Assembly: GCA_022846035.1 (NCBI GenBank)
Contig: AP025580.1
Coordinates: 2,108,001 to 2,172,000 of the forward strand
Direction: 5' to 3'
DNA from: Christensenellaceae bacterium
GTDB lineage: Bacteria; Bacillota; Clostridia; Christensenellales; Christensenellaceae
DNA length: 64,000 nt
This document shows, one piece after another, positions 14,349 through 18,694 of the stretch. The notes beneath the pieces were generated by a model. The model worked only from the letters and a program-made list of their open reading frames with translations. It was not told where the DNA came from and did not search any database. Position 1 is the stretch's first letter, and each line of letters opens with the position of its first letter. The position numbers and the translations under genes were made by a program.

Positions 14349-14386
14349 AAAAAGGCCGTTTAGCGGGAAATAACCGCCGTCCGGCC
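14349..14386 (-). terminator. Terminator of sortase gene
   Basis: On the minus strand GGCCG...CGGCC with an inner GGCGG/CCCGC pairing, followed by TTTTT. It lies 18 bp after the sortase stop and closes the surface-protein operon. Confidence 0.75.
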
Positions 14387-14403
14387 CTGGATAGGTCCCT
14401 GCC

Positions 14404-15264
14404 TTATGAAGCTATATCCTCTATTTGGCGTGCAACCACCACGATTCTTCCGTTTTCCGTTGAATATTCGCAGGTGGAAAGCGTCAGCAGCTTATCCCCA
14501 AACATAGGCGTGATCCCCGTATCATAAAGCTCCAGCGCTTTGCAGTTATTGACGTAGTCGTCGAACTGCTCCCTGTCGCCGGCGTCATAAAACTGATAGA
14601 ACTTAAACACATCCGTCTCGCTCTTTTTATATACCTTTGACAAAAATACCGAGACGATCTCATATTCGTTTTCCTCGTACAGGGTATCGAAGCGAAATGT
14701 TTTATGCGCTTTATAAAATTCCTCATCCTTGTAATCGATCAGCGTATGCAGCATAGACCCGTTTTTCATATTATGCCCATGGATCAGAAGATTGGTGCCG
14801 CGTGGTTCTACACTGCAATTTTTGTCGATAAAAAGACATCCTTCCCTGCTGGGGTCTTCCTCTTTCTCAAAATTCCGGTACAGGTAGTATTCACCATCGT
14901 CCGGCGTATACATGACCGGATAGTCGACTACCGTGCCGTTTATCTTAAGCCATCCGGCAATATCCGGATTTTGCGCATGCAGGTTTGCCATATGGGGAAG
15001 CATCTGTTTTACTGCCGGCGACGTTGAAAGACTGGAGGACGGCAGCATGCTGGGAGCCGGCACAGGCGTCGCTTCAATGGGCGACGGCGGCAAAGGCACG
15101 GGCTGTGTCGCCAACGGGATGACGACCGCCAGGCATATCGCGGCTATACATACTGCTACAAGCCATTTCCACCGTTTTAAGAAAGCCGCCACGCTGCTGC
15201 CTGGTGACGGCGTGTTTTCTCCGCCGACCTTTCTTTTATATTGTCCGTTTTTCTTTTTGTCCAT
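14404..15264 (-). CDS. Class B sortase
   Basis: A 286-residue cysteine transpeptidase. A short basic N-terminus is followed by one membrane anchor (about residues 34-53), a Pro/Ser-rich stalk and the sortase B fold. Catalytic residues: H164 in IHGHNM, C265 in LSTCEYS and R273 in NGRIVVVAR. Sortases cleave a C-terminal sorting motif and join the protein to peptidoglycan. The gene is last in an operon with a cohesin-like protein bearing VPKTGD, its likely substrate. I start at 15264, where GGAGA is well placed. The upstream gap contains a strong hairpin that may lower sortase expression. Confidence 0.9.
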   Translation of the reverse strand: MDKKKNGQYKRKVGGENTPSPGSSVAAFLKRWKWLVAVCIAAICLAVVIPLATQPVPLPPSPIEATPVPAPSMLPSSSLSTSPAVKQMLPHMANLHAQNPDIAGWLKINGTVVDYPVMYTPDDGEYYLYRNFEKEEDPSREGCLFIDKNCSVEPRGTNLLIHGHNMKNGSMLHTLIDYKDEEFYKAHKTFRFDTLYEENEYEIVSVFLSKVYKKSETDVFKFYQFYDAGDREQFDDYVNNCKALELYDTGITPMFGDKLLTLSTCEYSTENGRIVVVARQIEDIAS

Positions 15265-15285
15265 ACTATTTCTCCGCAAAAGCAA

Positions 15286-15310
15286 GCAAGGCGGGAAATT
15301 CCCGCCTTGC
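15286..15310 (-). terminator. Intra-operon hairpin between cohesin-like and sortase genes
   Basis: A perfect 10-bp stem (GCAAGGCGGG/CCCGCCTTGC) with a 5-nt loop, 20 bp after the cohesin gene stop, followed on the minus strand by TTGCTTTT. The T run is poor, so it probably acts as a partial terminator or 3'-end stabiliser that sets a high cohesin to sortase ratio. Confidence 0.6.
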
Positions 15311-15330
15311 GTTTTATGTGTCCCTGATGC

Positions 15331-16059
15331 CTACTTGGAAAGCGCCTTTTTACCTGCCGCAAAAGCAAGTACGCCTGCTGCCGCAATACCGATCGCCGCA
15401 AACGGCCATACCGGTATGGATGTATCTCCTGTTTTCGGTACGTCGTCAAGATCGTCAGCGTCAGCGGATGCCGAAGGCTGCGCCGTCGGGTTGCTTGTCG
15501 GCTGCGTTGTCGGTTCGGTCGTGGGCTGCTGTGTCGGTTCTTCTGTCGGCGGGGCGGGTTCCTCTACCGTACCTGTCGCCGCAGGAGACGCGCTCCCCGT
15601 GTAGGACGCAGGCGTCGCTACTCCATCCACACGTCCGCCGCCGTGGATACTGGAAATTCCCAGCTTCACTGCTTCGCCAGGCTGCGCCGTTACTTTTGCC
15701 GTATACACGATCGTTACGCTCTGTCCTGCATTCACAATATTGGTATCGTTCGCCAGCACAATATTGCTGCTGTCGCAGGACTTCGTGAAGAACTGCTGGC
15801 CGGACGTCAGGCTTACATCCTGCACGTCGAGTCCACTGGTATTGACCGCCGCGTCAAACGCGCCCATTCCCTCACCGGAATTCACGGTAAATGTTACCGT
15901 ATATTTGACCGTCTCTCCCTGTTTCACGGACGACGGTCCCTCTACGCTTGCGGTAAAGGACGGTGCATCCGCCGCAAATGCTACGGAATACACTCCCATG
16001 ACCATTACGATTGACAATACCGCCGCGATGATCATCAATGCTTTTTTTGATTTTCTCAT
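15331..16059 (-). CDS. Cell-wall-anchored cohesin-like protein
   Basis: A 242-residue surface protein. It has a signal peptide (residues 1-30, SVAFA/A), then a cohesin-type beta-sandwich (about 33-155) with VKQGETVKYTVTFTVNSGEGMGAFDAAV and a SLTSGQQF strand. A Thr/Pro-rich wall-spanning linker covers about 160-205. The sorting signal is VPKTGD (207-212), then a hydrophobic helix and a KK tail. Cohesins bind dockerins, and the upstream gene encodes a dockerin-tailed protein. The start at 16059 has GGAGG 10 bp upstream. The cohesin assignment rests on strand pattern, so it is less certain than the sorting signal. Confidence 0.7.
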   Translation of the reverse strand: MRKSKKALMIIAAVLSIVMVMGVYSVAFAADAPSFTASVEGPSSVKQGETVKYTVTFTVNSGEGMGAFDAAVNTSGLDVQDVSLTSGQQFFTKSCDSSNIVLANDTNIVNAGQSVTIVYTAKVTAQPGEAVKLGISSIHGGGRVDGVATPASYTGSASPAATGTVEEPAPPTEEPTQQPTTEPTTQPTSNPTAQPSASADADDLDDVPKTGDTSIPVWPFAAIGIAAAGVLAFAAGKKALSK

Positions 16060-16098
16060 TCTTTCGTGTCCTCCAAAATTCTTATTCACATGAATGTC

Positions 16099-17949
16099 TT
16101 AGTGATTCGCCTTGACCAGCGCTACAACATCCATCAGATCAGCCGACGTGATCGCGTCATTTGCGCTTCCCGTCGTGTTTGCCGCTTTCAGGAACGCGCC
16201 TGTCAGCACGCTTGTTCCCTTGATATGTCCTACAATGTCCATCAGGTCTGTGGAATCCACTACGCCGCGCCCTGTTACGTCTCCCTTGACGACAACTATG
16301 ACTTCCTGGAAAACACCGTCGCCGTTTTTGAGCTGAACGACGCAACCCGTGCCTACCGTAGCCGCCGCATCGAGCGTATTGCCCCGCGCGTCAGTCACTA
16401 CGATCGCGCCGTCCGGATTATCAAACAACTGGGCTACATCCTGCGCCTTTACAGCGCCTGCGGACGTCCCGTCGCCGATTCCGTTCCCCGAGAGATACTG
16501 CTCGCCCGTGCTTGCGTCGGGAACAGAAATTTCCACTTCTTTACCAGGATCGGCCGGCTTTGGCTTCAATTCGCTTCCGCCGTAGGTCGCGCTCACCGTC
16601 TCAAGCGTCAGCTTTTCACCGGTGCCATCCTGTGCTGTAAGGGTAACCTTGTATTCGCCCTGCTGATCCGCTTTTGCAATGCCAAGAAAATCGTCATGGC
16701 CGTCAAACACCTGTTCGCCCATTGCCGCATTGAAAGTGAACTTGACCGTCTCCCTGGAGGGATCGTTCCACGCCTGGCTCTGTGTCAGGTCAAACGCGCG
16801 TTCAAACGTCGCCGCGCCCGCTTCATAGGTATTGCCCGTGGGAACCTGGCTGGTTTTATCTTTGGCGTCCGCCGATATTTTGTCGTTTTCCACTTTCACA
16901 GTATAATGGAAGTTTTCCGGATTTTTGATCTCGCTCTTATAAATCACAAACGTGGTTTCTACCCACGGCAGGTCGTTATGGTCAGGATCGAATTCCTCTG
17001 TATAATTGCTTTCATCCACGAAATGTATTTCCTGGTTTGCAATCAACGGATTCTTGACCGGCGGAGCCGCCAGCGTCAGGCCGTCCGTATTGAGCGTATA
17101 CGTCGTATCATTGATTTTTATCGAAACGGGTTTATGCGTTTCCGCGTTATTCCCCATGAATACGATTCCCGTCATATCGCTCTTATCGAGCGCAACATAT
17201 TCGCCCGTTCCTTTGAACGTTATATCGTCCTCCGCCTTTGCGCCGCTCAGCGTGAACGCGAGGTAATATCCGTTCTGTTCGTCCGCGTTGGAACTAAAGC
17301 CCGTATATCCCTCGATATAGTTAAGCGTTCCTGTTACGTTGAACTGGTTTGCCTCTGTTTCGTCCTTTGCAAATGCTACGCCAGTCATTAGGTCTGACGC
17401 GCTTTTTCCCAATAAGTCTATGTCCGGCGTCGTCAGCGAGACGTCCGCCGCTTCCTGAGCCGCCAGTGTCAGGTTGTCCGTATTGAGCGTATACGTCGTA
17501 TCATTGATTTTTATCGAAACGGGTTTATGCGTTTCCGCGTTATTCCCCATGAATACGATTCCCGTCATATCGCTCTTATCGAGCGCAACATATTCGCCCG
17601 TTCCTTTGAACGTTATATCGTCCTCCGCCTTTGCGCCGCTCAGCGTGAACGCGAGGTAATATCCGTTCTGTTCGTCCGCGTTGGAACTAAAGCCCGTATA
17701 TCCCTCGATATAGTTAAGCGTTCCTGTTACGTTGAACTGGTTTGCCTCTGTTTCGTCCTTTGTAAATGCTACGCCAGTCATTAGGTCTGACGCGCTTTTT
17801 CCCAATAAGTCTATGTCCGGCGTCGCCAGCGAGACGTCCGCCGCTTCGGGCGGCGTACCTCCGTTCCCATCCTGCGCCATCGCTACTGCGGGCAGCATGG
17901 TAACGATCATCAGCGCAGTCAAAAGTAAAGCAATCAGTTTCTTTTTCAT
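16099..17949 (-). CDS. Secreted dockerin-domain protein with 131-residue tandem repeat
   Basis: A 616-residue secreted protein. Signal peptide is residues 1-25 (AVAMA/Q). Two almost identical 131-residue repeats follow (36-166 and 167-297), each starting AADVSL and ending TLNTDxLTLAA, probably beta-sandwich modules. A middle region (about 300-555) has IANQEIHFVDE and related strands. A type I dockerin-like C-terminus (556-616) has two segments, GDVTGRGVVDSTDL and ANDAITSADL. No catalytic domain is recognisable, so it looks like an adhesin or scaffold component rather than an enzyme. GGAGGAG precedes the start. It is cotranscribed with the cohesin-like gene. Confidence 0.75.
   Translation of the reverse strand: MKKKLIALLLTALMIVTMLPAVAMAQDGNGGTPPEAADVSLATPDIDLLGKSASDLMTGVAFTKDETEANQFNVTGTLNYIEGYTGFSSNADEQNGYYLAFTLSGAKAEDDITFKGTGEYVALDKSDMTGIVFMGNNAETHKPVSIKINDTTYTLNTDNLTLAAQEAADVSLTTPDIDLLGKSASDLMTGVAFAKDETEANQFNVTGTLNYIEGYTGFSSNADEQNGYYLAFTLSGAKAEDDITFKGTGEYVALDKSDMTGIVFMGNNAETHKPVSIKINDTTYTLNTDGLTLAAPPVKNPLIANQEIHFVDESNYTEEFDPDHNDLPWVETTFVIYKSEIKNPENFHYTVKVENDKISADAKDKTSQVPTGNTYEAGAATFERAFDLTQSQAWNDPSRETVKFTFNAAMGEQVFDGHDDFLGIAKADQQGEYKVTLTAQDGTGEKLTLETVSATYGGSELKPKPADPGKEVEISVPDASTGEQYLSGNGIGDGTSAGAVKAQDVAQLFDNPDGAIVVTDARGNTLDAAATVGTGCVVQLKNGDGVFQEVIVVVKGDVTGRGVVDSTDLMDIVGHIKGTSVLTGAFLKAANTTGSANDAITSADLMDVVALVKANH
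17059..17451 (-). repeat. Tandem repeat copy 2 (393 bp)
   Basis: Encodes residues 167-297 of the dockerin protein. Nearly identical at the DNA level to copy 1 over its whole length, with only a handful of base differences, so the duplication is recent or kept alike by gene conversion. Confidence 0.95.
17452..17844 (-). repeat. Tandem repeat copy 1 (393 bp)
   Basis: Encodes residues 36-166 of the dockerin protein. Three residues differ from copy 2: A/T after SL, T/A before KDE, and N/G before LTL. Confidence 0.95.
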
Positions 17950-17984
17950 TTTCTCTCCTCCTCATAATATGTAATATCGTGACA

Positions 17985-18146
17985 TCATTGGTAAAATGGT
18001 CCCTTGCTCAAAAGAGCCTTATTTTTGGCTTGTTTCTCGGAATCTCGTGCCAGTTTTGCATAGGAAAGCATTTTTAATTTGTTTGTGATATTCAGCCGGC
18101 AGTAGATTTTCATCATTTCCCGGAACAGATATTCCCTGTTTTCCAT
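17985..18146 (-). CDS. Small 53-residue protein, first gene of surface operon
   Basis: An uninterrupted 53-codon frame from ATG at 18146 to TGA at 17985. The protein begins MENREYLFREMMKIY and ends SKGPFYQ; it is basic and probably helical, with no signal peptide. AAAGGG lies upstream, and a promoter with TTGACT and TAAAAT lies about 40 bp upstream. It ends 35 bp before the dockerin gene on the same strand and is divergent from the XRE regulator. I recognise no family. Its placement between promoter and surface genes suggests a leader gene or a small regulator. Confidence 0.5.
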   Translation of the reverse strand: MENREYLFREMMKIYCRLNITNKLKMLSYAKLARDSEKQAKNKALLSKGPFYQ

Positions 18147-18183
18147 ATCCTCGCCCTTTCATGAAAATGACCTATACAACGTT

Positions 18184-18211
18184 ATTTTATCACATATTAA
18201 TTAAAAGTCAA
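18184..18211 (-). promoter_or_regulatory. Promoter of the dockerin/cohesin/sortase operon
   Basis: Minus strand: TTGACT (18206-18211), 16 bp, TAAAAT (18184-18189) with an upstream TGA that makes an extended -10. It drives the small gene and presumably everything to the terminator at 14349. Confidence 0.6.
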
Positions 18212-18229
18212 ACTGTTTTAATTCGTTTG
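18209..18229. promoter_or_regulatory. Candidate operator between divergent promoters
   Basis: Inverted repeat CAAAC-N11-GTTTG overlapping the -35 of the surface-operon promoter. The word TTTGTGAT recurs at about 18081, 18226 and 18303 in the same gap. A binding site for the adjacent XRE regulator is the simplest reading. Confidence 0.4.
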
Positions 18230-18304
18230 TGATTATTAGTCGAAAAATTTGTTTTTTCGGCATGCAAATACACATTGGTTTCGCAATTGTTTCCGCCTGC
18301 GATT

Positions 18305-18346: not shown

Positions 18347-18694
18347 GTGTATAAACGAATTAAGGAAATCCGCAGGGCCTTGGGCCTGAATCAAATGGAA
18401 TTTGCAAAGAGGCTTGGCTTAAGTCAATCCTCCCTTGCCATGATCGAGGTTGGACGGCGCAGTTTCAGCGATAAACATATCAAGCTGATCTGTTCCGCGT
18501 TCCATATCAATGAAGAGTGGCTGCGCAGCGGCCAGGGTGAAATGTTCCTGACAACATGTTATGACCAGGAATTTATCGACGTATTTGAACAGCTTCTGCC
18601 TGAAACGCAGGAGCTTCTTGTCGCAATCGCAAAGGAGCTTTTAGAGACGCAAACAAAGCTTCTGGATAAGTCTAAAAGGGAAAATAATGAATGA
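18347..18694 (+). CDS. XRE-family helix-turn-helix regulator
   Basis: A 115-residue protein. The N-terminal HTH (about residues 5-60) has LGLNQMEFAKRLGLSQSSLAMIEVGRR, the classical XRE/Cro pattern, followed by INEEWLRSGQGEMF, common in phage-like and stress repressors. The C-terminus is a short helical dimerisation region. It starts with GTG, with GGAAAGG well placed. It is divergent from the surface operon and ends at a shared terminator, so it is probably that operon's local regulator. Confidence 0.85.
   Translation: MYKRIKEIRRALGLNQMEFAKRLGLSQSSLAMIEVGRRSFSDKHIKLICSAFHINEEWLRSGQGEMFLTTCYDQEFIDVFEQLLPETQELLVAIAKELLETQTKLLDKSKRENNE

Follow-up and report, generated by a model that had tools for sequence, protein, structure and literature searches.

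Cohesin-dockerin joints have been described mainly in enzyme complexes. In Ruminococcus flavefaciens, a cohesin of the wall protein ScaE, fixed by a sortase, holds CttA, an attachment protein that is not catalytic (PMC4081043; this and the other papers below are cited from excerpts of their text). Here, we describe a locus in a 64,000-nucleotide stretch of a Christensenellaceae bacterium genome (assembly GCA_022846035.1, contig AP025580.1, positions 2,108,001 to 2,172,000), hereafter called the window, in which a cohesin-like wall protein, a secreted dockerin-bearing protein and a class B sortase are encoded side by side. Our best reading, by analogy, is that this cassette may work like ScaE-CttA. 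The R. flavefaciens pair is part of a full cellulosome in which ScaB is anchored as well (PMC4081043), whereas the pair in the window appears to be private, no other cohesin or dockerin having been found in the genome, and its sorting signal, VPKTGD, lies beside a class B sortase.

Other described systems share parts of this arrangement. Non-cellulosomal cohesins of Clostridium perfringens (2vo8, 2jh2 and 2w1n) are the best structural matches to the window domain, but 2vo8 and 2w1n come, by their entry titles, from glycoside hydrolases, whereas in the window the domain belongs to a wall anchor that has its own sortase. Cohesins and dockerins have been proposed to serve cell adhesion in anaerobic methanotrophic (ANME) archaea and syntrophic sulfate reducers (PMC10553843); these are other lineages, and the excerpt of that report names no sortase cassette. 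In the mucinolysome of Limousia, the cohesin protein cSca5 carries a sortase signal and acts as the cell anchor, but that network bears enzymes and its anchor is of the LPxTG type (PMC12997984, in excerpt). Cohesin and dockerin matches in single-cell genomes of Christensenellales were reported as cellulosome components (PMC10266427, in excerpt). Among the papers listed for Christensenella or Christensenellaceae, or for cohesin-dockerin with sortase, no title or abstract opening describes such a cassette.

The likely function of the locus is surface display by a dedicated, sortase-anchored pair that is not cellulosomal and is probably adhesive. All coordinates are positions in the whole window. 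The genes form a minus-strand set (14404 to 18146) in the transcription order 53-residue open reading frame (ORF), 616-residue secreted protein, 252-residue protein and sortase, and signal-peptide-like N-termini were read from the sequence in the operon proteins. The genes named in a preliminary description of this DNA (the 53-residue ORF, the dockerin protein, the cohesin protein with VPKTGD, the class B sortase and a divergent XRE regulator) are all present. The main features are as follows.

14404 to 15285, minus strand: class B sortase, with an N-terminal membrane helix seen by eye; likely start ATG at 15264
15331 to 16089, minus strand: wall-anchored cohesin-like protein of 252 residues; likely start ATG at 16059, with GGAGG upstream
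15331 to 15441, minus strand: sorting signal VPKTGD, hydrophobic helix and GKKALSK tail, read from the sequence
15565 to 15975, minus strand: cohesin-like domain, identified by structure matches (137 residues folded)
16099 to 17949, minus strand: secreted dockerin-bearing protein of 616 residues, with no Pfam family above its cut-off
16099 to 16296, minus strand: dockerin-like domain with two F-hand-like halves, the calcium loops partly degenerate
16291 to 16542, minus strand: module immediately N-terminal to the dockerin, with a GTG motif; kept in relatives and in an X-module-like position

Since the cohesin-like and dockerin-like domains both score below their Pfam cut-offs, their identification rests on structure and on the dockerin family profile. 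The structure of the cohesin-like domain, predicted from an alignment of 13 rows, had a predicted local distance difference test score (pLDDT) of 82.6 and a predicted template modeling score of 0.80. The top four VIA-align matches were the cohesins 2vo8, 2jh2, 6kgf and 2w1n (Z 13.4, 13.3, 13.1 and 13.0), the first superposing with a root mean square deviation of 2.4 over 124 residues. The preliminary description had set the cohesin fold as a check by structure prediction; the predicted structure does match solved cohesins best, with one adhesin domain (9ifr, considered below) in a tie, and the model thus gives the window domain a cohesin beta-sandwich fold. A comparison of the cohesin profile with Protein Data Bank (PDB) sequences returned cohesins and antibody chains intermixed, from E 0.006 upwards, and was not used.

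For the dockerin, a family profile (A7, 12 rows) recovered solved dockerins from the PDB, among them 4uyp (2.5e-10) and 1ohz (1.3e-9), and the dockerin homology suggested earlier is borne out by this search. Two duplicated halves, STDLMDIV and SADLMDVV, are visible by eye in the window dockerin. The dockerins of two relatives (L112 and L113; L-numbers denote individual loci of relatives) look canonical by eye and keep what we take to be the usual ligand places. The module preceding the dockerin gave nothing usable against the PDB, the only match being a weak one to dystrophin (E 0.17).

We then considered what the dockerins are attached to. In the Pfam scan, none of the seven dockerin proteins of Christensenella had a convincing enzyme domain. 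Immunoglobulin (Ig)-like families were above cut-off at L090, L092 and L095 and PKD/Ig-like families at L091, giving four of seven with such domains; the L094 protein matched no family, and the L093 and window proteins had sub-cut-off matches only. FLAD1_M, the middle domain of FAD synthase, was also above cut-off in the L091 protein, but we take it as a repeat effect because no single stretch passes the cut-off. The partner protein of the window has no enzyme domain above the Pfam cut-off, which agrees with the earlier statement that the locus is without an enzyme, and the earlier suggestion that adhesion is likelier than fibre degradation is supported.

The sortase matched the class B model TIGR03064 at 2.4e-41, its 141.6 bits being below the model cut-off of 153.75, and was above the cut-off of PF04203. 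Its motifs HGH, STC and GR are at residues 169 to 171, 270 to 272 and 279 to 280, and by its sequence the protein is a member of the class B family. PKTGD is invariant across nine aligned rows, the window included, and 8 of 10 matches to this pattern in the window genome are C-terminal sorting signals, the window's among them. The preliminary description had called a VPKTG-type substrate less usual for a class B sortase. This view is rejected: C. difficile SrtB, a clostridial SrtB acting on PKTG-type, (S/P)PXTG signals, cleaves SPKTG and PPKTG and not NPQTN (PMC4155245, in excerpt), and SrtB with a VPKTGD-type signal is ordinary in clostridia. In contrast to C. difficile, the window motif begins with V, and the substrate encoded beside the sortase is a cohesin anchor. 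In the window genome, two more class B sortases (L210:7056-7883 and L211:6816-7664) lie among genes that by eye resemble those of conjugative elements.

The distribution of the pair was examined in six Christensenella genomes, numbered G000 to G005 (G000, the window genome; G001, Christensenella sp. Marseille-P2438; G003, C. intestinihominis; G005, C. hongkongensis), using the cohesin family profile at E 1e-6 and the dockerin family profile at E 0.1. These searches gave a single cohesin and a single dockerin in each of G000, G003 and G004, two of each in G001 and in G005, and none of either in G002. All seven cohesins and seven dockerins form adjacent pairs. The genome-wide dockerin search proposed in the preliminary description was thus carried out by family profile, and with a single cohesin and a single dockerin found in the whole window genome the pair is self-contained, as had been claimed. 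A second cohesin-profile match in G000, at E 7.9e-4, is a DUF11/DUF7507 protein. The sortase gene directly follows the pair in 5 of the 7 loci; the contig ends at one C. hongkongensis locus (G005b), and the other (G005a) was joined to a sortase-bearing contig by a 118-base identical overlap. In the family set of 18 genomes, a cohesin at E 1e-6 was found in seven.

The cassette is also found outside the genus. The same arrangement, a dockerin followed by a VPKTGD-bearing cohesin and SrtB, recurs in Candidatus Parachristensenella avicola (L114), in a Gemmiger metagenome-assembled genome (MAG; L119) and in a Bacilli MAG (L118), the last carrying another dockerin gene downstream of the sortase gene. 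Another Bacilli MAG locus (L122), which begins within the cohesin gene, reads cohesin, SrtB, dockerin, and in Pseudoflavonifractor (L124) the cohesin protein is without a sorting signal, which is on the next protein. That relatives keep the dockerin-cohesin-sortase order is one of the points that set the locus above chance. In G001, G002 and G003, the downstream neighbour P0006 and an exonuclease gene are still found together but lack the adjacent cassette, indicating that the cassette changes place between species. Of 393 genomes surveyed across the class, 45 gave a profile match at E 1e-3, mostly a weak one. When a subset of these matches, 40 neighbourhoods outside the genus, was rescored, 26 had a cohesin-profile match and 28 a dockerin-profile match, 17 of the latter being among the 26. 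A SrtB profile built from G000 and G004 only matched none of these 40, but did match the sortases of L114, L118, L119, L122 and L124. Cohesin and dockerin genes are therefore often together in Clostridia, and the SrtB-anchored form is scattered. One scan of viral contigs returned no relative.

Indirect support for binding comes from the joint divergence of cohesin and dockerin. Across 13 loci, cohesin and dockerin distances correlated with a Mantel r of 0.75 (p 0.0002), and with the sortase distance removed the partial r was 0.59 (n 11, p 0.0004); the p values are bounded by the number of permutations (5000), and the sortase represents the species tree imperfectly. Dockerin and sortase distances correlated with r 0.49. 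The sister-genus locus G006b (no dockerin neighbour seen), the second L118 dockerin and the multi-cohesin proteins of G006 were left out, the dockerin after the sortase was used for L122, and the partial test was run without G005b and G006a, for which no full sortase sequence was available.

The two loci of G001 (L090:8973-10677 and L091:9316-11023) share a 1.7-kb block at 98.1% identity, which covers the anchor tail, the sortase and an Rrf2 gene; beyond it, nothing alignable was found in the 17-kb stretches compared. The sortases of the two copies are 99% identical, the cohesins 35% and the dockerins 28%. Judged from the sequences, such a pattern would be expected of private pairs whose members diverge jointly.

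From these sequence data, we infer that the window sortase cleaves VPKTGD and that the cohesin binds the neighbouring dockerin. In the proposed mechanism, the sortase would link the cohesin protein to peptidoglycan at VPKTGD, and the wall-fixed cohesin would then hold the dockerin protein, which may be a stalk or an adhesin. The cassette would amount to one adhesin split over two genes, a wall socket and a plug-on stalk.

The remaining features of the locus are as follows.

15286 to 15310, minus strand: hairpin of 11 bp, GC-rich with a T-rich tail, in the cohesin-sortase gap; leaky terminator or attenuator candidate
17059 to 17451, minus strand: second of two tandem 131-residue units, identical to the first at 126 of 131 residues and 384 of 393 nucleotides
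17452 to 17844, minus strand: first of the two tandem 131-residue units, found by sequence comparison
17985 to 18146, minus strand: 53-residue ORF, with a counterpart in one relative (65% over 51 residues)
18189 to 18233, no strand assigned: operator-like dyad in the divergent gap, with 18-nucleotide arms and a 9-nucleotide spacer
18347 to 18694, plus strand: XRE-family regulator by family match, divergent, just beyond the 14349 to 18211 covered by the preliminary description

The near identity of the tandem units (17059 to 17844) suggests recent duplication or length variation in the dockerin protein. The ATG starts given for the cohesin protein (16059) and the sortase (15264) are likelier, from the upstream bases by eye, than the listed GTG and TTG.

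Among the loci whose control regions were compared, the XRE regulator is kept in two relatives, G004 (89% identical) and G005a (70%), and the 53-residue ORF in G004. The arms of the window dyad are 83% complementary, and the matching gaps of G004 and G005a hold dyads with the same 9-nucleotide spacer (16-nucleotide arms at 88% in one and 18-nucleotide arms at 72% in the other), all of these figures being without a shuffle control. The operator-like gap described earlier is thus present, with similar dyads in two relatives, and the XRE protein may switch the operon via this dyad. The regulator itself fits the earlier account only in part: XRE stands at G000, G004 and G005a, whereas a serine recombinase lies upstream at three other loci. 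This recombinase (Resolvase, PF00239) lies upstream of the dockerin gene in 3 of the 7 Christensenella loci (L092:5868-6509, L095:12122-12856 and L090:5075-5881), and may be connected with the cassette moving or switching.

A hairpin with a T-rich tail was found in all seven cohesin-sortase gaps folded (the window and six relatives), with z values against shuffles of -4.3 to -6.1 and -4.72 for the window stretch; the stretches were cut around the seen hairpin, those of L118 and L119 being the whole gap or nearly so. As a leaky terminator, the hairpin might keep the output of the sortase under that of its substrate. The whole scan gave 6 terminator-like sites against 4.8 expected, and promoter-like sites (5 found, 5.0 expected) were not used.

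The sister-genus MAG Mgla_MAG_6-bin_35 (G006) holds a larger set of the same parts, with 31 dockerin and 13 cohesin matches by family profile. Four scaffoldin-like proteins (L214:269-2833, L215:7039-8367, L224:7098-9134 and L098:11926-13272) carry two to four cohesins and one or two dockerins each. Fourteen dockerin proteins, covering 15 of the 31 dockerin matches, were scanned for cargo, and the families found were Ig-like, NlpC/P60, BspA leucine-rich, flavodoxin and carbohydrate-binding. None of these 14 proteins had a glycoside hydrolase family above cut-off, and a chitinase N-terminal domain at L225 was below cut-off. The protein with both a flavodoxin domain and a dockerin is at L222:1021-2046.

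Several results weigh against a dedicated display pair. The window domains score 15.3 bits against a gathering threshold of 24.1 (Cohesin, PF00963) and 12.6 against 22.9 (Dockerin_1, PF00404). The PF00963 score is also below cut-off in relatives; at E<=0.5 this family missed the cohesins of G001 and G006, and it gave sub-cut-off matches elsewhere in G002, G003, G004 and G005. Because PF00404 at E<=1 also matches in 9 of 14 control genomes, a sub-cut-off dockerin match alone says little. In the window dockerin, T and R occupy what we take to be the usual calcium-ligand places, so that some ligands are presumably lost, and loop 2 has a 2-residue insertion. In a joined-chain model of the L112 pair, made with alignment rows for the cohesin only, the dockerin part had a pLDDT below 50, which left the model uninformative on the pairing. 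Since the window genome has seven further sortase matches and seven other PKTGD signals, the pairing of sortase and substrate rests on adjacency. The cohesin distances correlate with those of the sortase as well (r 0.69), and close relatives show uneven co-divergence: G003 and G005a have cohesins 77% but dockerins 46% identical. A rival reading makes the cohesin-like protein a stand-alone adhesin or pilin-like subunit with an Ig-like fold, the dockerin-like protein acting separately and adjacency reflecting common regulation only. Besides the degenerate dockerin loops, the structural rankings speak for it: the CLIPPER adhesin domain 9ifr was fifth in VIA-align (Z 12.9, a tie with the cohesins by the VIA-align rule, with more cohesins following) and first by Foldseek E-value, before six cohesin chains; Thermus TTHA1873 reached Z 11.9 and the first pilin 11.2, with other pilins below; and an RrgB-type pilin domain of NCBIfam matched at E 4.4e-4, below cut-off. 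However, the pilin form is weakened because no lysine, as needed for a pilus cross-link, is invariant in the domain (best column, K in 8 of 13). The one-to-one adjacency of cohesin and dockerin and their co-divergence beyond that of the sortase argue against unrelated neighbours, as does G006, which repeats the domain up to four times on dockerin-bearing proteins in a scaffoldin layout. We regard the stand-alone adhesin as unlikely.

The same parts, a cohesin and a dockerin, make up cellulosomes, and the sortase-anchored ScaE of R. flavefaciens (PMC4081043, in excerpt) provides a precedent for a minimal cellulosome whose polysaccharide-degrading enzymes would be recruited from other sites of the genome. 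The searches, however, found one cohesin and, by Pfam and family profile, one dockerin, whose carrier has no enzyme domain above cut-off. With neither a multi-cohesin scaffoldin nor a dockerin-bearing enzyme found, this reading was rejected as extremely improbable. Decay is another explanation: the locus could be a remnant, non-functional in the window species, of a larger network like that of G006, consistent with the degenerate dockerin loops, the numbers of matches in G006 (31 dockerin, 13 cohesin) and the absence of the cassette from G002. It is very unlikely, as in G004 the dockerin, cohesin and sortase genes all have open reading frames (89%, 74% and 75% identical to the window, respectively) and the regulator, dyad and hairpin are kept.

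The dedicated display cassette remains the likely reading. A wider proposal, tentative and possible rather than likely, is that Christensenellaceae use private lock-and-key pairs as exchangeable adhesin sockets, in which the sortase and anchor remain constant, cohesin and dockerin diverge jointly and orthogonal pairs may occur within one genome; the sister lineage would have grown the same parts into a scaffolded surface network, possibly carrying adhesins and wall enzymes but not cellulases.

If the display cassette is real, a stripped-down, SrtB-anchored pair recurring in Clostridia and Bacilli would mean that the cohesin-dockerin joint is used simply as a handle for surface display. Such short natural pairs, of which one genome has two different ones, would then be usable for studying how binding specificity diverges, and the cassette would name a candidate adhesion system for the gut genus Christensenella.

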